A DNA stretch of 64,000 bases from Ruminococcus sp. Its GTDB lineage: Bacteria; Bacillota; Clostridia; Oscillospirales; Acutalibacteraceae. Shown here in pieces: positions 234 through 59,666 of the stretch. The position numbers were made by a program, and so were the translations under genes. Under the pieces are notes generated by a model. It made no database searches. It was not told the DNA's origin and saw only the letters and a list, made by a program, of their open reading frames with translations. The stretch spans positions 23,844 through 87,843 of the forward strand of contig JAFRGI010000012.1 of NCBI GenBank assembly GCA_017433905.1, written 5' to 3'. Each line of letters starts with the position of its first letter. The first letter of the stretch is position 1.

Positions 234-3200
234 TTATTTCCTATCTCTTCTGCGTACAAAGTAGACAGCAACAGTTGCTGATACAAGTACGAGGAGGATA
301 ATAACGGCCATAGATGCACTACCTGTCTTAACTGTACCGGATCCGTTGGAATTGGTACCACTACTATCCTTTGTTGCAGAATCAGATGTAGAACCGGAGG
401 TAGTTGTCGGAGCTACAGTCTCAGATGTCGCATCAGGTGTTGTAGTAGGCTCTACAGATACAGGCTCAGAAGTAGGCTCGGTTGTAGGTGCTACTGTTGT
501 AGGCTCAACCGTTGTAGGTGCTACTGTTGTAGGCTCAACCGTTGTGGGCGCCACTGTTGTAGGCTCAACCGTTGTGGGCTCAACCGTTGTGGGCTCAACC
601 GTTGTGGGCGCTACTGTTGTAGGCTCAACCGTTGTGGGCGCTACTGTTGTAGGCTCAACTGTTGTGGGCTCAACTGTTGTGGGCGCTACTGTTGTAGGCT
701 CAACCGTTGTAGGCGCTACTGTTGTAGGCTCAACCGTTGTGGGCGCTACTGTTGTAGGCTCAACTGTTGTGGGCTCAACCGTTGTGGGCTCAACCGTTGT
801 AGGCTCAACCGTTGTAGGTTCTACAACAGGTACATAAGCAAGCTCATCAAGAAGCATGTTAGCTTTTACATCAAATTCAACACCGGTAGCCTTAAATACC
901 AAAGTGATGAAGGAAGCCTGCTTATCAATTGTGTAACCATTAATATTAGAAGCACTTGCCTTGATAACGCCGGGTGTTTGGGAATTGATCATGGCGCCAG
1001 TTGTGATCTGAGGCATCTCAGCCTTCACAAGCTGCATAACGTTCGGGTTGTATTCGAAGATCCACTGCAGGGACTCAACATCATTACCATCCGTGTCGAG
1101 CTTCCAAATCATAGTGAACTCATCGCCAACCTTGGAAACAACGGGGTTCGCACCCTGAAGTGCAAAGCTGGAGGGAACAGTCGGGATGTGAGCAGCATTA
1201 ATCTGTGTATTAACCGCAACAGAGAGAGTCTGCTCAAGTGTTGTGGGCGCTACCGTTGTAGGCGCAACTGTTGTGGGCGCAACTGTTGTGGGCGCTACCG
1301 TTGTAGGTGCAACTGTTGTAGGTGCAACTGTTGTGGGCGCAACTGTTGTAGGTGCAACTGTTGTAGGTGCAACTGTTGTGGGCGCAACTGTTGTAGGTGC
1401 AACTGTTGTGGGCGCTACCGTTGTAGGCGCAACTGTTGTGGGCGCTATCGTTGTAGGCGCAACTGTTGTGGGAGCTACCGTTGTGGGCGCTACCGTTGTA
1501 GGCGCAACTGTTGTAGGCGCTACCGTTGTAGGCGCTACCGTTGTAGGCTGTACGGTCGTCGGCTGTACAGGTGTGCCTTCGGGAAGTATCTCGAAGCGCA
1601 TATCTGCCTTTTTATCGAATTCTGCAAGAGTAGCTTCGTATTTATCACTATTCTTGTTTGCCTCATGCCATGTGTCGGGATCAGCAGGCTGACCGTAGTC
1701 ATTGAGGGTTATAATCTGAGTATCCAGATAAACATCAGTGTTACCTTCTCCGATAACCTCAAATACAGCACTGATAACGGGAAGAGCTTTACCCTTCTCA
1801 TCTGTCAGATAGATACCGCCGTCAGTGATGGACGAGAAATTGATCGGAAGAATGGGTTCTTTCTTCAGATTATCCCAGTATGATACAACACCGGCACCGG
1901 AAGCTACTGCTGCGGGAGACAATGTAGTCGTTCTGCCGGACTTGTTATTCTCTTCTTTCAGAGAAAGAACAGCAGGATCATAATGGAGCTCAAACTGACC
2001 GTTAATCATTTGATACGCATCTGTATCAATATAGAAATTAACAGTGACCTTCTGAGGAATGTTAGGCTCAGCATAAGACTGCGTTGTTTCTTTATAATAT
2101 TTAGAGTTGGAAAATGCGTGTACATTCAGATTCTTGCCGGCGGGTGCCGTTGTCGGCTGTACAGTTGTCGGCTGTACAGTTGTCGGCTGTACAGTTGTCG
2201 GCTGTACAGTTGTCGGCTGTACGGTTGTCGGCTGTACGGTTGTCGGCTGTACGGTTGTCGGCTGTACAGGAGCAACATAATCCGGATCGGTTACACCCGC
2301 ATATACTGCAACGGGGGTCTCCTTAGGAAGGTACGGAATTTCCTGAACAATAACAGAATTGTTGATGAAATAACTCTCTCTGGATTCACCCTCACCCTGT
2401 ACGTTCATGATTTCAACATCGAGATTAACCTCCGTGTTGCCGGCCTTTCCGGTAGGATTGAATGTAACAGATACGAAAGGAATTCTTCCGCCTTTCTCAG
2501 TGCAAAGGTCAAAACCATTCAGATCGGACGCGTTTGCCTTGATACCGCCGTTAGGCAAGGACTCGGGCTCAAAGTTAACGATTGTACCGTTACCCTCGGT
2601 AACATAGAATACGGAAGGAATAAATTTACCCTTCTTAGTCTTGCCGTTCACACCATCAGTCATGTCGACTGTAAGGAATTCCTTGTCGTAGGTCATTGTC
2701 CACTGAGCATTAATCATCCACTTCTCTGTCATCTCAATCCAGTAGGTAACCGTAACCTGATTGGTAGTGGGATCAAACGTCTGTGTATAAGTGGGGGTAA
2801 TATTAGACTTAGCGATTACCACAAGCTTTTCATCCGCAGAATCACCGACAGGCTCCGGAGAAGAATGAGTAACAGCCGTGGTCTCCTCAGCAGGAGCTGT
2901 TGAGGGATCCTGAGCGGAAGCCTTTGCGGTAGCTTTCTCGGGAATGAATTCCTGACCGTCGGAACCAACTACATTGATCTCATAGCTTGCATCAAAATTA
3001 CCCTTCCGGAAGTCAAACTTAGACATGTCAAGGGTAATTGTAACGGTAGAACCATTCTCGGGAACCTCAAAGCAGATGTTATCACCATCGTATTTGGCAG
3101 CATTATCTTTGCCTACGACAGTATTGCCCGCAGCACCGAAGTTGTCAGTCCATGAACCATTTGCAGCAAACTTGAACTGATAGGCGTCGTTGGAAGCAAC

Positions 3201-3764
3201 ATCATCAAAGACAATCTGGTAAACGCCGGTAGCAATCTCTTTCATCTTGTTGGCGTCTGCAGCAACGTCCCATGAGAGATCGTTCAGAAAGCCGCCCTGT
3301 CCGGAACCAACAACGCGCATCTCCTGAACAGCAGCTGGATTAAGCTCATGAAGCTTAACGTTATCGCCGGTTACCTTAACCTGATCTCCATCAACAAGCT
3401 TGGGATCAAAGGTTACGGTGATCTTACCGGTGCCGATCACTTCAATTGCGATATCGTTGCCGGTCTTTGTGCCAATCCAATCGGTACCGTTTGTTACCTT
3501 CAAGGAAACAACCTTGTCAATAGGACCGACATTCTCATACACTTTCGTGTATGTTCCGTCTCCGTTTGCGGTCATCGCGTTTCGGTCGATCATTGCATCG
3601 GACCACGTAGCGCCAAAGAGATCGGCGCTGCTGCCGACAACATACCATGTCGCAGCAGGATCGGTCGCATCATCCTCCGCAGCAGTAACGCTGATAGCGG
3701 TGATAGAAACCGATGTTACGATGAGCATTAAAGCAAGCAGAAGACTTAATGCTTTTTTGAACAT
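234..3764 (-). CDS. Cell-anchored scaffoldin-like protein with starch-binding-like and cohesin-like modules
   Basis: This is a secreted protein of about 1176 aa that probably holds starch-degrading enzymes at the cell surface. The start at 3764 (MFKKALSLL) follows AGGAGG at good spacing and opens a signal peptide ending near residue 29. Two beta-rich modules (about 35-138 and 145-268) resemble the X25/CBM-like modules of amylolytic proteins; the second has the YQFKFAANGSW pattern. Three modules (about 310-490, 545-725 and 843-975) show a cohesin-like pattern, such as MINAQWTMTYDKEFLTV and MINGQFELHYDPAVL. They are separated by Thr/Pro linkers built on PTTVQ, PTTVA and PTTVE units. The C-terminus has VKTG, a membrane segment and RRRDRK, like a sortase-type or membrane anchor. 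The architecture recalls the R. bromii amylosome scaffoldins; that identity is inference, because the modules are divergent and were judged by eye. Confidence 0.75.
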   Translation of the reverse strand: MFKKALSLLLALMLIVTSVSITAISVTAAEDDATDPAATWYVVGSSADLFGATWSDAMIDRNAMTANGDGTYTKVYENVGPIDKVVSLKVTNGTDWIGTKTGNDIAIEVIGTGKITVTFDPKLVDGDQVKVTGDNVKLHELNPAAVQEMRVVGSGQGGFLNDLSWDVAADANKMKEIATGVYQIVFDDVASNDAYQFKFAANGSWTDNFGAAGNTVVGKDNAAKYDGDNICFEVPENGSTVTITLDMSKFDFRKGNFDASYEINVVGSDGQEFIPEKATAKASAQDPSTAPAEETTAVTHSSPEPVGDSADEKLVVIAKSNITPTYTQTFDPTTNQVTVTYWIEMTEKWMINAQWTMTYDKEFLTVDMTDGVNGKTKKGKFIPSVFYVTEGNGTIVNFEPESLPNGGIKANASDLNGFDLCTEKGGRIPFVSVTFNPTGKAGNTEVNLDVEIMNVQGEGESRESYFINNSVIVQEIPYLPKETPVAVYAGVTDPDYVAPVQPTTVQPTTVQPTTVQPTTVQPTTVQPTTVQPTTVQPTTAPAGKNLNVHAFSNSKYYKETTQSYAEPNIPQKVTVNFYIDTDAYQMINGQFELHYDPAVLSLKEENNKSGRTTTLSPAAVASGAGVVSYWDNLKKEPILPINFSSITDGGIYLTDEKGKALPVISAVFEVIGEGNTDVYLDTQIITLNDYGQPADPDTWHEANKNSDKYEATLAEFDKKADMRFEILPEGTPVQPTTVQPTTVAPTTVAPTTVAPTTVAPTTVAPTTVAPTTIAPTTVAPTTVAPTTVAPTTVAPTTVAPTTVAPTTVAPTTVAPTTVAPTTVAPTTVAPTTVAPTTVAPTTLEQTLSVAVNTQINAAHIPTVPSSFALQGANPVVSKVGDEFTMIWKLDTDGNDVESLQWIFEYNPNVMQLVKAEMPQITTGAMINSQTPGVIKASASNINGYTIDKQASFITLVFKATGVEFDVKANMLLDELAYVPVVEPTTVEPTTVEPTTVEPTTVEPTTVAPTTVEPTTVAPTTVEPTTVAPTTVEPTTVEPTTVAPTTVEPTTVAPTTVEPTTVEPTTVEPTTVAPTTVEPTTVAPTTVEPTTVAPTTEPTSEPVSVEPTTTPDATSETVAPTTTSGSTSDSATKDSSGTNSNGSGTVKTGSASMAVIILLVLVSATVAVYFVRRRDRK
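480..828 (-). repeat. 15-bp minisatellite, linker 3 of the scaffoldin
   Basis: More than 20 tandem 15-bp units encode mixed VEPTT/VAPTT pentapeptides. Units differ mainly at third codon positions and at the E/A codon, in a higher-order pattern that suggests expansion by unequal recombination. The tract links cohesin-like module 3 to the C-terminal anchor. Confidence 0.9.
1237..1560 (-). repeat. 15-bp minisatellite, linker 2 of the scaffoldin
   Basis: About 20 tandem units encode VAPTT, with one IAPTT and two VQPTT units at the upstream end. It joins cohesin-like modules 2 and 3. Near-identical units occur in blocks, which fits recent duplication. Confidence 0.9.
2146..2272 (-). repeat. 15-bp minisatellite, linker 1 of the scaffoldin
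   Basis: Eight tandem units encode VQPTT and join cohesin-like modules 1 and 2. The units are almost identical at DNA level, differing mostly by one A/G change. Confidence 0.9.
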
Positions 3765-3809
3765 TTCTTTTTTTCCTCCTTGTTTAATAATGCTTCTATA
3801 AGCAATACT

Positions 3810-3839
3810 ATTATAATACAAGTACTTCCTAAAAGTCAA
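3810..3839 (-). promoter_or_regulatory. Sigma-A-type promoter of the scaffoldin gene
   Basis: Read on the minus strand, TTGACT (3834-3839) is followed after 18 bases by TATAAT (3810-3815). This leaves a leader of about 40 bases before the start at 3764. Confidence 0.7.
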
Positions 3840-3942
3840 TAAAATTTCGCAATTGGAAATCACATTTTATTGCTTTTTTCAATTATTTGTTTATTCAAAC
3901 AAATAATTCAAAGATTATTTGGCGGTTTCAACAAGAAATTTT

Positions 3943-37687: not shown

Positions 37688-37909
37688 TTAAGCGCCCGCA
37701 TTTGCTTCCAGTTCATTGTAAACGACGGGCTCGTTGTCATAAAAGTGTTCTCTCAAAATGTGCGTCATTTCATGCTTTACGGTTTTTTGCTGCGTTGCAG
37801 CGCTCAATCGGGTATTGATATAAACATTATAATCACTTTCCTCATCCACAACCGTAACGCCTTTTATTTTGACAGGGAGAGACAATCCTCTGATAAAAAT
37901 ACGATTCAT
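37688..37909 (-). CDS. Short HExxH protein of ImmA/IrrE type
   Basis: The 73-aa protein carries the zinc-protease motif VKHEMTHILREHF near residue 44 and a downstream ELEANAGA, the NELEAN pattern that supplies the third ligand in ImmA/IrrE proteases. Such proteins often cleave or release a partner XRE repressor. It is much shorter than usual ImmA proteins and may be a minimal form. Its ATG directly abuts the stop of the XRE gene (TAA-ATG), so the two are co-translated. Activity is not proven by sequence. Confidence 0.75.
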   Translation of the reverse strand: MNRIFIRGLSLPVKIKGVTVVDEESDYNVYINTRLSAATQQKTVKHEMTHILREHFYDNEPVVYNELEANAGA

Positions 37910-38296
37910 TTAGTAGTCCTTTTTCAGCGCTTCAATGATTTTGACCGCCTGCATGACATCATCCTTCGACGCACCTTTTGCCAGACTGAACAGCATACGC
38001 ATTTCCTTGCGGTTTTTCAGTTCTTCCAAATACTCCTGTAAGTCCGCTTCTTCCGTAAAATTCTGCACAACGTGTTTCTCCGTCAAATCTGCTTTTGATA
38101 CGCCAAAATAATCGGCAATCCGCTGCATTTTATCCACGCGCGGATACTTTTTTCCGTTTACCCAATCAGACACCGTAGAGGCTGTCAAGCCCAAATCGCG
38201 TACCAGACTGTTTTGAGTTTTCCCTTCTCTCGCCAAATAATAACGAAGATTTTCCGCAAAAATTTGTTTGTTTTTATCCGCTTCAAACGTCGCCAT
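37910..38296 (-). CDS. XRE-family helix-turn-helix repressor
   Basis: The 128-aa protein has an N-terminal phage-repressor-like HTH (about 17-72): LRYYLAREGKTQNSLVRDLGLTASTVSDWVNGKKYPR, with the recognition helix around TASTVSDWV. The C-terminus is helical and may form dimers. It is followed by the HExxH gene and faces the phage-tail-like cassette across 278 bases. The matching inverted repeats at 38390 and 38465 are its likely operators. Confidence 0.88.
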   Translation of the reverse strand: MATFEADKNKQIFAENLRYYLAREGKTQNSLVRDLGLTASTVSDWVNGKKYPRVDKMQRIADYFGVSKADLTEKHVVQNFTEEADLQEYLEELKNRKEMRMLFSLAKGASKDDVMQAVKIIEALKKDY

Positions 38297-38324
38297 TTTA
38301 TCACTAACCTCTCTTATAAACTAT

Positions 38325-38353
38325 ATCATACACGAAAAACGCCGTAAAATCAA
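38325..38353 (-). promoter_or_regulatory. Promoter of the XRE-HExxH pair
   Basis: On the minus strand TTGATT (38348-38353), 17 bases, TATGAT (38325-38330), then GAGAGG before the ATG at 38296. Confidence 0.65.
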
Positions 38354-38381
38354 TAACCTTTAACAAAATTTCGTTTTCGGA

Positions 38382-38410
38382 TTGACATTACGCTTAAAGC
38401 GTGATATAAT
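38382..38410 (+). promoter_or_regulatory. Near-consensus promoter with operator in its spacer
   Basis: TTGACA (38382-38387), 17 bases, TATAAT (38405-38410), a full consensus pair. The spacer holds the inverted repeat ACGCTTAAAGCGT (38390-38402), exactly where a repressor would block polymerase. It drives the cassette at 38575-40604. Confidence 0.85.
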
Positions 38411-38438
38411 GATAATAAAGGTTGGACAGGCACACTAT

Positions 38439-38465
38439 AACGCACCTAGTTGCGTTTCTTTTTTT
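38439..38465 (+). terminator. Terminator-like hairpin in the cassette leader
   Basis: AACGCA/TGCGTT (38439-38444 with 38451-38456) with a 6-nt loop is followed by TCTTTTTTT. It lies about 25 bases after the expected start of transcription, so it could end a very short RNA or act as an attenuator. The 6-bp stem is modest. Confidence 0.5.
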
Positions 38466-38501
38466 GGCAAGCTATTACGCTTTTAGCGTAATAGCTTGCC
38501 A
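38465..38501. repeat. Perfect 17-bp-arm palindrome with a second operator core
   Basis: The arm TGGCAAGCTATTACGCT (38465-38481) pairs perfectly with 38485-38501 across TTT. Its centre, TTACGCT-TTT-AGCGTAA, repeats the core of the promoter operator. No T-tract follows on either strand, so it is not a typical terminator. It may be a second repressor site, an RNA hairpin in the leader, or both. Confidence 0.85.
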
Positions 38502-38574
38502 TGCGACCAATCAGGAGGGATGTACTTTTACACGAAAACACATTCAAAAACATCCTAAAAAGGAGGATTGAAAA

Positions 38575-39051
38575 TTGACAAACCATTATTTATCCGCAAA
38601 CAACATTTTCTTGTACAGCGGGTCAACCTTTGACGGCTGTCTTTCTCTTAAAGATATTCACGACCACACTTATTTCCTTTCCGAAGGCGAACAAGTATTC
38701 TTTTTCATTGAAAAAAAAGAACATGCCTACGGCAACACTCCCGGAGACAGTTCCATTAAACTGACGCTGACAAAAGATGATATGATTAACGGAAAATATC
38801 CTTTTATGCTCAGCCACAAGGTAACCGAAACCATGATCGGCGATTATTTCTATTATGCCTTCATTCGGTTTGCTAACGGCGATTATTATCAAATTGTACC
38901 GCACACGCTTCTTTTTGCGTCAAAGCCATGTGCCGGTATTGATTATTGGGAAAACAAAAACACCATTTATGCAAAAATACCAAGAGTGATGAGAGCTTGC
39001 GACGGCTGCGATCATCAAACTTGCCATACTGAAGGAGGAATTGAACTATGA
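38575..39051 (+). CDS. Unrecognised protein, possibly a phage baseplate/tail component
   Basis: The 158-aa protein starts at TTG after a strong AAAGGAGG. It looks like a beta-rich domain (LYSGSTFDGCLSLKD, SIKLTLTKDDMINGKYPF, YYYAFIRFANGDYYQI) comparable in layout to small phage baseplate modules, followed by a Cys-rich tail CDGCDHQTCH. No signal peptide is seen. The next gene overlaps its stop as ATGA. The function is unknown; the phage link comes mainly from the partner gene. Confidence 0.65.
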   Translation: MTNHYLSANNIFLYSGSTFDGCLSLKDIHDHTYFLSEGEQVFFFIEKKEHAYGNTPGDSSIKLTLTKDDMINGKYPFMLSHKVTETMIGDYFYYAFIRFANGDYYQIVPHTLLFASKPCAGIDYWENKNTIYAKIPRVMRACDGCDHQTCHTEGGIEL

Positions 39052-40604
39052 ATTGTAACCATTGCCAAAACTACTACGTTGACGAAACCGGTCAGACTTA
39101 CCCGGATATCCCGCTGAACACAACGGCGGAGGAAGCTTATGTCAGAACGAACCTTAAACTGAAAAATGAAGTTCAGCGTATGGAGAGTATGATACATGAA
39201 ACGGACAATACCATCGAAACAGAGATTGCACGGGTAGATAACACTGTTCAGGAAATTGTGGAAGTAACCGAACAAGAGCTGCAAGCCTCATCAGAAATCC
39301 TTAACCACCGCATTGATACGATCATTGCCCATAACAACGATACCGAAGGCAACACGGAACTCATTGACATCCGAACCGGCACAGACGGAACGGTTTATAC
39401 AAGCGCCGGCAGTGCCGTCAGGACACAGTTGACCAAAAATTCTGACGCTATTGATACAACAAATCAATTTATTGAAAGCTTTTATCACATTGAAGAATAT
39501 ACCGGAACGAATCTATTTGATCCGTCGGCAGCATCCAGAGATAAAACGCTCAATTATAGTGGTGTGCTGACAGATGCCCCCGGTTATACGCTTTCTGACT
39601 ATATTGCAGTAGATCAGGCAGAGACGCTGTTTTTTTCTCATAACAGTCAGTCCAGCACACCAACGTATATTTTTACCTTTAACAGCCGAAAAGAGTTTGT
39701 TCAACGAATCACCGGCAGCAGCAATGAATACACTGTCGGCTCCAATATCGCGTACATCCGATTCAACACCACAAATGAAAGAGTTTCCAAATATATGGTT
39801 GCCGATACCGATAATATCCCGTATGAGCCATACATCTACACGCGAACGACGGATTTAGAAGCAGACAACCTGACCGATATGGAACAAAGAATATCGAACC
39901 TCGAAACAAACGAAAGCACTGTGTCCAAGCTGTTCGGAAAAAAACTATGTGTCTGCGGCGACAGTCTGACTTTCGGAGCATATGCTGATGAGGATGAAAA
40001 CCATATCCGCAAAACTTACGCCTATTACACCGCCAAAAGGAATCACATGGAGCTAACTGTCAATGCCGTTTCGGGATCTACGCTGACAAGCTTTAAGGAA
40101 GGTGAAACCGGAGGCGGCGCGGCATTTACCTACGGCGGAAACTACGCGAGATACAAACAGTTGGGCAATGACTTGGATTATATCACTATATGGTTCGGGC
40201 TAAACGATCACACTTATCTGGAAAAAACAAACGGTATCGGAACGATAGACAGCTCCGACGTCACCACATTTTACGGAGCATGGAATGTAGTTTTGCAGTA
40301 TCTGATCCATCAATACCCAACTGCCAAAATCGGTATTATTGTTACTTACGGCGCATCTGCGGAAATCCGAAACGCAACCAGAAATATCTGCAAAAAATAC
40401 GGAATTCCGCCGCTTGATTTCATGGGGGACGAAAAAATCCCTCTCGTATCCGGTCACGGCAGAGATAACGGTACAGAAGTAGACGCCGCTGTTCTTGCTC
40501 AAAAAAGAAACACCTTCATCTACAGCGGAGACAGTGTCCACATGATCGATGAAGGCTATCAATATTTCTCGACGATATTTGAAAACTACTTGAATTCACT
40601 GTAA
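39048..40604 (+). CDS. Phage-tail-like protein with C-terminal SGNH/GDSL hydrolase domain
   Basis: The 518-aa protein begins with a Cys pair (CNHCQNYYV). A helical coiled-coil region follows (about 25-100), then the phage tail signature ELIDIRTGTDGTVYTSAGSAVRTQL near residue 104, a beta region (about 150-280), and an SGNH hydrolase domain from about 303. Its blocks are visible: GDSLTFGAYA (nucleophile Ser), the Gly residue near SGSTLTSF, WFGLNDHTYL (Asn), and SVHMIDEGYQYF (Asp-x-x-His region, here as DSVHM). Such enzymes remove acyl groups from glycans. No signal peptide is seen. It could be a phage relic recruited near the capsule locus. Confidence 0.82.
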   Translation: MNCNHCQNYYVDETGQTYPDIPLNTTAEEAYVRTNLKLKNEVQRMESMIHETDNTIETEIARVDNTVQEIVEVTEQELQASSEILNHRIDTIIAHNNDTEGNTELIDIRTGTDGTVYTSAGSAVRTQLTKNSDAIDTTNQFIESFYHIEEYTGTNLFDPSAASRDKTLNYSGVLTDAPGYTLSDYIAVDQAETLFFSHNSQSSTPTYIFTFNSRKEFVQRITGSSNEYTVGSNIAYIRFNTTNERVSKYMVADTDNIPYEPYIYTRTTDLEADNLTDMEQRISNLETNESTVSKLFGKKLCVCGDSLTFGAYADEDENHIRKTYAYYTAKRNHMELTVNAVSGSTLTSFKEGETGGGAAFTYGGNYARYKQLGNDLDYITIWFGLNDHTYLEKTNGIGTIDSSDVTTFYGAWNVVLQYLIHQYPTAKIGIIVTYGASAEIRNATRNICKKYGIPPLDFMGDEKIPLVSGHGRDNGTEVDAAVLAQKRNTFIYSGDSVHMIDEGYQYFSTIFENYLNSL

Positions 40605-58520: not shown

Positions 58521-59666
58521 ATGAACCACGATCTGTTGATGTCAACCGCAAAAGACTTAATCTATCTCCTGTCCTGCGCCGTCCATGAAACCGCTCCCGA
58601 TCCGCAGCGCTGTGCCTCCATGGATCTGCCTTCCGTGTACCGGCTGGCAGAGGAACATATGCTGTCCGCGGCAGCAGCTTTTGCACTGGAACGCACGATC
58701 ACCCTGCCCGAAAACTGGCAAGCGGCAAAAGGAAATGCCATACGCAAGCAAATTATCCATCATGCCGAACGAAAAAAAGTGTTTCAAATGCTGGAGGAAA
58801 ACAAAATATGGTATCTTCCGCTCAAAGGAATCGTCCTCAAGGACTGCTATCCCAAACCGGCCATGAGAGAGATGTCCGACAACGACGTTCTGTTTGATAT
58901 CTCCAAAGGCAACATCGTCAAAAAATGCATGCAGGATCTGGGATATACCTGCACGGAATTTTTCAAAACCGACCACGGTCACGACGTGTATCAAAAGCCA
59001 CCGTGCGTCGTTTTTGAAATGCACCGTTCTCTGGTAAATCGTCAGGCATTCCCCGTCATCTTTGAGTACTATCAAAACAAAACAGATCTGCGAAAAAAAG
59101 ATACCGGCTCTTCCTATGCCTGTCATATGTCCGATGAGGACTTTTATGTTTATCTCATCTGCCACATATACAAGCATTATTCCGGAAGCGGAACCGGGCT
59201 CCGTTCTCTGCTGGACATATATGTATACTGCCACCGTCATCACAGCCAACCGGACTGGCCCTATATTGACGCAACGCTCGCCGCACTGGGACTGAAGGAA
59301 TATGCCGACGGAGCACGCAGTCTTGCCAAAAAGATCTTTTCCGGGCAGGATCTCTCCGAACAGGAATACAAGGAACTGTGTTATTATGTTGAGTCCAGGG
59401 CATACGGGCAGTTCAAGCATTCCATCGAGAAAAAAATAGCCAAAAATGACGGCCGGTTTCTCAAATCCAAATACATTCTGCGCCGGATTTTTCCGACAAA
59501 AGACTCTCTCCAGCTGTATCACCCTTTTGTGTACCGCCACATGTTTCTCTACCCTGTCATGCTAATTTACCGCCCGATACAGGGACTGATACGGCATCCG
59601 AAAAAACTGAAAAAAGAATTCGCCGTTATACGGCGTTTTCAAAAAGATGCGGACGACGAAAAATAA
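58521..59666 (+). CDS. Nucleotidyltransferase-family protein (NTP_transf_5 type)
   Basis: The 381-aa protein shows the pattern of the uncharacterised nucleotidyltransferase family: WYLPLKGIVLKDCYPKPAMREMSDNDVLFDI near residues 95-127, with the Asp-x-Asp pair of the fold, then EMHRSLV and HIYKHYSGSGTGLRSLLDIYVYCH. Substrates of this family are unknown. It is the only plus-strand gene in the capsule locus and has its own regulated-looking promoter and a long leader, so it may be controlled apart from the synthesis genes. No signal peptide or membrane segment is obvious. Confidence 0.75.
   Translation: MNHDLLMSTAKDLIYLLSCAVHETAPDPQRCASMDLPSVYRLAEEHMLSAAAAFALERTITLPENWQAAKGNAIRKQIIHHAERKKVFQMLEENKIWYLPLKGIVLKDCYPKPAMREMSDNDVLFDISKGNIVKKCMQDLGYTCTEFFKTDHGHDVYQKPPCVVFEMHRSLVNRQAFPVIFEYYQNKTDLRKKDTGSSYACHMSDEDFYVYLICHIYKHYSGSGTGLRSLLDIYVYCHRHHSQPDWPYIDATLAALGLKEYADGARSLAKKIFSGQDLSEQEYKELCYYVESRAYGQFKHSIEKKIAKNDGRFLKSKYILRRIFPTKDSLQLYHPFVYRHMFLYPVMLIYRPIQGLIRHPKKLKKEFAVIRRFQKDADDEK

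Follow-up and report, generated by a model that had tools for sequence, protein, structure and literature searches.

The stretch analyzed here, below called the window, is 64 kb of DNA from genome bin G000 (G000:C8:23844-87843), which comprises 1.1 Mb in 31 contigs and is 74% complete. Between rfbC and a capsule locus, it carries an XRE repressor gene and a gene for a small HExxH (HEMTH) protein, which are divergent from two further genes, P3 and P4. With moderate confidence, we regard these four genes as a chimeric island derived from a prophage, whose phage repressor would govern an orphan esterase fiber. All four open reading frames (ORFs) were intact in the ORF list and on reading of the sequence, at the coordinates given in Table 1. 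Both ORFs and domains agreed with the original prediction, which had described an XRE-HEMTH pair facing a two-gene transcript for a phage-tail-like protein with an SGNH domain. In the following, L numbers denote loci opened for comparison, G numbers denote genomes, and g50 is one genus among the relatives.

Judged by its sequence, the left half of the island represents the immunity region found in a family of temperate phages: it holds a CI-like repressor gene with putative operators in the divergent early promoter, a feature by which such regions are recognized. The repressor matched HTH_26 (E 1.6e-10) and HTH_3 (E 3.5e-10) and was 58-71% identical, over nearly its full length, to seven prophage or phage repressors, with nearly the same recognition helix. 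Its HExxH partner matched PHROG 20936 (E 3.2e-7), and the nine homologues compared, which came from prophages of the genus and from IMG/VR contigs, showed 34-67% identity. Homologues of this protein were present in 10 of 161 genus genomes, the window's own included. Eight of the nine other loci were opened with wider surroundings (G169 was left out), and an XRE relative adjoined the HExxH gene in all eight; a phage integrase was near in seven, a serine recombinase in one (L066), and a cro relative in five (L063, L064, L065, L068, and L070). Since the same pair occurs in genus prophages and IMG/VR contigs, the phage-type control by XRE and HExxH proteins that had been proposed appears sound. 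ImmA inactivates ImmR through cleavage (PMC8960796).

Only two exact copies of the palindrome ACGCTNNNAGCGT (ACGCT-N3-AGCGT) occurred in the window, each of them between XRE and P3; the expected count was 0.05 (mean of 100 shuffles, one of which also gave two). The same operator was found within TTGACA...-10 in the genus prophages L063, L064, and L068, with a near copy in L065, and in the genus prophages with exact sites a second operator lay 249-269 bp away, at the cro end. L066 and L067 had other palindromes in the XRE intergenic region, and none of that kind was seen in L069 and L070. Among 129 loci, exact sites beyond those of the window were confined to L063, L064, and L068 (two each) and L072 (one), the last being a stray match inside a tail gene. 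A scan of IMG/VR for TTGACATTACGCTNNNAGCGTGATA returned six contigs. Relatives of XRE (48-72% identity) and of cro were present on all six, and the HExxH gene on three (L152, L153, and L157). A second site followed 238-271 bp downstream in five of the six, the exception being L155. L152, L153, L155, and L157 shared the recognition helix of the window repressor, and L156 had a different one. The suggestion that the palindromes are repressor sites thus gains from their presence in the early promoters of phage relatives, and they are best regarded as putative operators.

The second operator of the phages coincides in part with the final codons of cro, which read FFGKELRLKR in L152. Under the early promoter pR of the window, cro is reduced to these last codons, and the 33-base remnant was identical to L152, L153, and L064 at 28 of 33 positions and to L157, L063, and L068 at 25-26. 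The distance between operators O1 and O2 was 87 bp, compared to 238-271 bp in the phages. The alignment indicates that cro has been deleted from the window apart from its last codons. In the phage counterparts the same promoter drives cro, while in the window P3 and P4 come next instead. Taken together, the cro remnant, the shortened O1-O2 distance, and the position of pR ahead of P3 indicate that a phage early promoter now leads into P3-P4. The inverted repeat around O2 was longer than in the compared phage stretches and, once transcribed, would fold the leader RNA into a strong hairpin. No known RNA leader was matched by Rfam at gathering scores in eight loci. A leader terminator conserved across the P3-P4 loci was considered and dropped; a script found one in six of nine, and only four of the nine clearly beat shuffles.

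Table 1. Positions in the window of the genes, protein regions, and regulatory sites of the island.
Feature	Position	Strand	Basis
HExxH protein, 73 aa (HEMTH ... NELEAN), candidate minimal ImmA/M78-like anti-repressor protease	37688..37909	-	domain search, homologues
XRE (CI-like) repressor, 128 aa, HTH 'TASTVSDW..GKKYPRVDKMQ'	37910..38296	-	domain search, homologues
Promoter-like site of the XRE transcript, TTGATT-17-TATGAT	38325..38353	-	sequence reading, comparison with relatives
Phage-type early promoter pR, consensus TTGACA-17-TATAAT, ahead of P3-P4	38382..38410	+	same promoter-operator in L063, L064, L068, and six IMG/VR contigs
Putative operator O1 ACGCTTAAAGCGT, within pR spacer	38390..38402	+	site scans
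Terminator-like hairpin and T run in leader	38439..38465	+	score reached by 1/200 shuffles
Remnant of cro 3' end (FFGKLLRF*)	38459..38491	+	alignment with phage cro ends
Putative operator O2 ACGCTTTTAGCGT, center of a perfect inverted repeat with 17-bp arms (38465-38501)	38477..38489	+	site scan
P3, phage baseplate-type protein (PHROG 1084 relatives)	38575..39051	+	TTG start, AGGAGG upstream
P4, receptor-binding-fiber-like, C-terminal SGNH hydrolase domain	39048..40604	+	ATGA overlap with P3; Pfam, PHROG
P4 N-terminal collar NYYxDENGxxHRDIPLGTxPxDAYVRTN	39048..39182	+	alignment of P3-P4 loci
P4 linker RIDTIIA..TEGNTELIDIRTG.DG.VY.SAG.AVR.Q, also in phage receptor-binding-type proteins	39309..39428	+	alignment, phage searches
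SGNH domain: GDSL (aa 304-307), GLND (384-387), DSVH (495-498)	39954..40562	+	Pfam and motif reading

The right half recurs as a two-gene cassette. P3-P4 was found at nine loci, the window, L119, L120, L121, L122, L098, L124, L126, and L129. As far as the contigs reach, neither the XRE/HExxH genes nor other phage genes were seen beside it at the eight other loci, and P3-P4 in turn was absent from all eight other opened XRE/HExxH loci. Both contig flanks exceeded 1 kb only in the window, L098, L122, and L126; the upstream flank was shorter than 500 bp in L120 and L121 and 390 bp in L124, the downstream flank of L129 was 209 bp, and L119 ended within P4. In genus g50, the cassette was present in three of six genomes with three different sets of neighbors, and dN/dS, which was obtained from these other genomes' cassettes and not from the window's, was 0.08-0.11 for P4 and 0.14-0.20 for P3. 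P3-P4 is under purifying selection in g50. L098 and L124 shared 85% DNA identity over 3.3 kb, which stopped at the stop codon of P4. The occurrence in g50, the low dN/dS, and the differing neighbors indicate a cassette that is kept apart from visible phages and whose position varies. As its relatives occur without a visible virus, P3-P4 may serve the bacterium.

Glycan genes adjoined P3-P4 in the window and in L120. The neighbors in L119 were a hexapeptide transferase and an NTP_transf_5 protein, and L121 had a TPP enzyme together with an iron alcohol dehydrogenase, probably as parts of a phosphonate/glycan locus. The other five loci adjoined unrelated genes: PlsY and a leucine-rich-repeat protein, a histidine kinase and DnaJ, FtsZ, PRPP synthetase, DUF6514, and a reverse transcriptase. 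This reverse transcriptase (L129:950-2221, RVT_1 E 3.2e-19) lay about 1.4 kb from P3-P4, and a diversity-generating repeat near it was discarded, as the 6-kb contig had no direct repeat of at least 40 bp.

P4 matched Lipase_GDSL_2 (PF13472) with E 1.1e-8 over aa 303-505, and its SGNH part matched PDB 3dc7 (E 6.8e-6). The GDS, GxND, and DxxH blocks were all present, which classes the window protein as a predicted SGNH/GDSL hydrolase. Kinship with tail proteins was seen in the matches of P4 to PHROG 11541 (E 1.2e-35) and PHROG 5240, 'tail fiber protein' (E 9.5e-21), in a match to phage LT985570, and in that of P3 homologues to PHROG 1084. The earlier assignment of P4 as a tail-like SGNH protein was therefore retained on the PF13472, PHROG 5240, and PHROG 11541 matches. 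The linker motif was present at all nine loci and the N-terminal collar at seven (not L126 and L129). Among the sampled phages, matches to P4 were limited to the linker or the SGNH part; the collar had no relative in IMG/VR in scans seeded by exact peptide patterns, and the P4 homologue of G431 matched no phage. The GDS motif was kept in all eight complete P4 proteins and the terminal DxxH in six (not L126 and L129). Compared with seven other P4 proteins, the N part of the window protein was 35-52% identical, while the C part was 25-28% identical to six, the L124 alignment being ignored because it covered 11 residues; L120 and L121 were 61% identical in the N part and 26% in the C part. From these alignments the N-termini are conserved and the SGNH ends differ as if exchanged. 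Phage SGNH fibers are active esterases (PMC13123978), and one deacetylates capsule (PMC8471582).

P3 of the window had no Pfam family and no match in PDB, and its match to PHROG 1084 had only E 0.3, compared to E 1.8e-6 for the longer L120 homologue. Relatives of 112-129 aa were carried by the prophage-type stretches L127, L099, and L128; in L127 the gene adjoined a phage minor tail protein and an SPP1_Dit-type protein, with the same neighbor order in L128, and in L099 it preceded a holin and an amidase. These positions next to tail, holin, and amidase genes suggest that P3 is a baseplate-type protein. No relatives of P3 were found in INPHARED phages or among 97 near relatives, nor in IMG/VR by scans seeded with exact peptide patterns, which distant relatives can escape. 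Among 394 genomes of the order, G431, placed in one family with G000, held the sole strong relative besides the window (E 6e-26); matches at E 0.1 or better were obtained in 22 genomes, the remainder being weak. The P3 homologue of G431 had only a weak partial match to phages, in Bacillus phage Mater. A two-row P3 profile matched 14 of 398 family genomes, with G000, G431, G855, and G894 below 1e-50 and the others weaker. In the GTDB collection the profile matched five contigs, RUG183, RUG14906, RUG14826, RUG11803, and RUG10751, of which RUG11803 is identical to the G894 contig; we take the RUG prefix to denote rumen bins. The g50 genes for P3 (L098 near 10871, L122 near 1340, and L124 near 7283) had no ATG, GTG, or TTG where the window has TTG; a Shine-Dalgarno-like GGAGG was present ahead, and an ATA start or a later start is possible.

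The ORF lists of the window were read by eye, with no profile scan of every ORF, and no integrase, capsid, terminase, or lysis gene was seen, nor a tail module around P3-P4, nor integrase or early replication genes adjoining the XRE pair. Tail tube and sheath genes were likewise not seen among the ORFs read, and these two families were not searched by profile. The window held no tRNA gene. The profile PF03354 of TerL, run on eight genomes, matched in G883 (three matches) and G431 (one, below the cut-off) and was absent from G000, G190, G111, G855, G894, and G843. A whole prophage was thus rejected, as no other phage genes were seen in the window, and the earlier view that this is not a normal prophage agrees with the ORFs read. 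The four genes as a conserved system found no support. The P4 N-terminal profile had one strong match in the 161 genus genomes, that of the window, and further weak ones in two genus genomes (1e-4) and a second time in G000; the surroundings of these weak matches (L148-L150) read as housekeeping genes, and they were taken as chance coiled-coil matches. The original prediction had named a lack of co-occurrence elsewhere as a ground for giving up the four-gene set, and no second copy was found in the genomes searched. When relatives were searched, the operator sites recurred in genus prophages and IMG/VR contigs and the set did not. As for a confinement to complete prophages, the P3-P4 half recurred outside visible prophages, and the full set was in the window only.

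Several points weigh against a repressor-controlled fiber island. The set occurs in one genome bin, 74% complete, in which PF03354 had no match, and no holin, lysin, or particle genes were seen near P3-P4 in the window. The HExxH protein matched Peptidase_M78 (PF06114) with E 0.0011 and 19.2 bits, under the Pfam cut-off of 22. An extra operator-like site at the XRE promoter of relatives is degenerate in the window, and the C-terminal half of about 150 aa that P3 homologues have in L119-L122 and L098 is missing from the window P3; both look like decay. (By eye this half looks SGNH-like, but three of these homologues had no Pfam match.) The dN/dS values belong to cassettes elsewhere, a prophage may lie beyond the contig ends at the loci other than the window, L098, L122, and L126, and the binding, expression, and enzyme activity of the island genes are predicted only.

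The main rival, and a serious one that may quite possibly be true, is a decaying ("grounded") prophage remnant without present function, in which one deletion from cro to P3 joined the immunity genes to the last tail genes. The loss of cro, integrase, and all other phage genes, the shortened P3, the degenerate operator-like site, and the single strong P4 match in 161 genus genomes all speak for such a remnant. It fits less well with four intact frames that retain the HTH, HExxH, and SGNH motifs, with a pR at consensus in both -35 and -10, and with the persistence of both operators despite the loss of the intervening cro. Moreover, the purifying selection on stand-alone P3-P4 relatives points to use outside phages.

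In the original prediction, the island was a domesticated and inducible module of the bacterium, which may remove acyl groups from the surface glycan of the cell itself or of a rival, and four acyltransferases next door were cited for it. These were found as three Acyl_transf_3 proteins and one hexapeptide transferase in the capsule-side locus, which also encodes a flippase, a Wzy_C protein, and a pyruvyl transferase. Glycan-type genes at four of the nine P3-P4 loci (clear in the window and L120, likely in L119 and L121) and the GDS motif in every complete P4 would suit this module, but no route outward is encoded, the other five loci adjoin unrelated genes, the repressor half is not conserved alongside the fiber half, and DxxH was not found in two of eight complete P4 proteins. 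We consider it unlikely.

More improbable still is a fiber reservoir held by the host or a satellite, which would equip the particles of an infecting or co-resident phage with P3-P4 and alter the range of cells that the released phages bind. Its attractions are the P3 relatives beside tail, holin, or amidase genes in prophages L127 and L099, the linker shared with phage receptor-binding-type proteins, and the lack of an evident export signal, as a hydropathy scan found no signal-peptide-like hydrophobic stretch in P3 or P4. Against it, neither P3 nor the P4 collar had a relative in the IMG/VR scans, which were seeded by exact peptide patterns, so that no phage with the same pair is known here. 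For a single genome bin, a prophage contig falsely joined to a capsule contig during assembly could be invoked, but the intact order of promoter, leader, and gene, the gap of only 10 bp to the capsule gene, and the G+C of P4 (0.443), which resembles that of the capsule genes (0.436), make it very improbable.

For the repressor-controlled fiber island, the genes, the promoter, the identity of the operators with those of phages, the cro remnant, the orphan relatives, and the catalytic motifs can be read from the DNA itself, and from these we infer repression, proteolysis, induction, export, and substrate as follows. The left half would consist of a CI-like XRE repressor, a small HExxH partner that is probably an anti-repressor protease, pR with O1, and an O2 derived from the end of a phage cro, after the loss of cro, integrase, and all other phage genes. 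The right half would be an orphan "host-recognition" cassette of a baseplate-type P3 and an SGNH-esterase fiber P4, of a lineage that probably lives outside visible prophages in related bacteria. XRE bound to O1 and O2 would keep pR shut, with immunity to homoimmune phages as a by-product. Once XRE is lost, either through cleavage assisted by the HExxH protein or through titration by the operators of an incoming phage, pR would make P3-P4. Since no exit for P4 is encoded in the window, the protein would most likely be freed by cell lysis or carried out on a phage particle. Outside the cell, P4 would act only once lysis has occurred or when mounted on a particle of a co-resident phage, and there would bind and deacetylate an O-acetylated surface glycan.

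A broader proposal, which we put forward as speculation and consider unlikely, is that P3-P4 is a phage-free and occasionally moving cassette that these bacteria keep, often at glycan loci, and whose exchangeable esterase end suits the glycan made there. It would be switched on at phage induction or entry, here by a captured CI-type repressor that serves as a phage-entry sensor, and its fibers would restrict further infection by masking or deacetylating the receptor.

Other fiber genes were noted in addition to these loci. A different phage-type fiber N-terminal domain, here called uvrA-type, was present in 98 of 161 genus genomes, as a single copy in 97, with 25-73% identity besides the query's own, and had no match in G000. 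Twenty of the 98 contexts were fetched, mostly the best-scoring. In 14 of these, and in L077 and L071, the fiber gene directly adjoined uvrA; 12 of the 14, with continuing contig, then had a lysin (GH25-type in 11 and Amidase_3 in L194) followed by thyX. The uvrA-thyX operon (L077:8052-11626, L071:8237-11858, and L191-L210) comprises a fiber with a variable C-terminus, a lysin (CHAP in L071), and often a holin, and no capsid or tail-tube gene was noticed in the contexts read. It looks like a vertically kept fiber-lysin-holin unit, for which holin-dependent release (PMC9527704) would be a guess. The C-termini of these fibers differed, with SGNH in L077, L071, and L074; ten others (L193-L207) included eight without a Pfam match, one DUF6273, and one LRR_5. 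In L074:8933-10987 (G111:C14), according to the translations, a single uvrA-type fiber-SGNH gene lay between a sugar transferase and capsule-type genes, not at uvrA. Another orphan two-gene unit with an ATGA overlap was found within a capsule-type locus (L019:7679-9522, G190:C1); its second protein was SGNH fiber-like (PHROG 5240, E 4.5e-53), and its first gene was unrelated. NTP_transf_5, an uncharacterized nucleotidyltransferase, occurred in the glycan surroundings of three fiber cassettes (window 58521-59666, L119:1825-2955, and L019:6394-7524). At 234-3863 of the window, the ORF list showed a large protein in which long PTTV/EPTTV repeats are combined with a hydrophobic C-terminal segment.

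The island would be a case of natural rewiring: receptor-binding fiber genes now follow a phage repressor with its operators, from which cro has been removed. It brings out a wider pattern of phage-type fiber genes kept outside visible prophages, under purifying selection where measurable and carrying enzymatic ends that differ. If they are functional, these cassettes could account for shifts in surface-glycan acetylation and phage host range that are missed by prophage scans. The switch and the fiber domain are each already of a known kind. Among the literature matches listed, which comprised titles and the beginnings of abstracts with few subscription journals, the switch-fiber fusion, orphan tail-fiber cassettes, and orphan repressors were undescribed.

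The closest counterparts of the left half are the immunity regions of L063, L064, L065, L068, L152, L153, and L157, with which the window shares the repressor, the HExxH partner, the operators, and pR. It differs from them in that cro is a 33-bp remnant, integrase and early genes were not seen, and pR leads into P3-P4. The ImmR/ImmA systems of ICEBs1 and TnSmu1 (PMC8960796, PMC10233336) likewise combine a cI-like HTH repressor with a metalloprotein gene, and the ICEBs1 repressor of 127 aa is similar in length to the 128 aa of the window protein. Unlike in those elements, the HExxH protein of the window has only 73 aa, and the switch faces two tail-type genes, with no mobile element and no integrase seen. 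For the right half, the Klebsiella prophage SGNH fibers and gp63.1 of phage G7C, as described in PMC13123978, are likewise fiber-type proteins with a C-terminal SGNH esterase domain; P4 differs in lying outside a tail module, in a collar not found in IMG/VR, and in belonging to another host group. "Grounded" prophages (PMC6379469) are likewise defective prophages that remain in the chromosome, whereas in the present island an immunity switch is joined to a fiber cassette that also exists alone.

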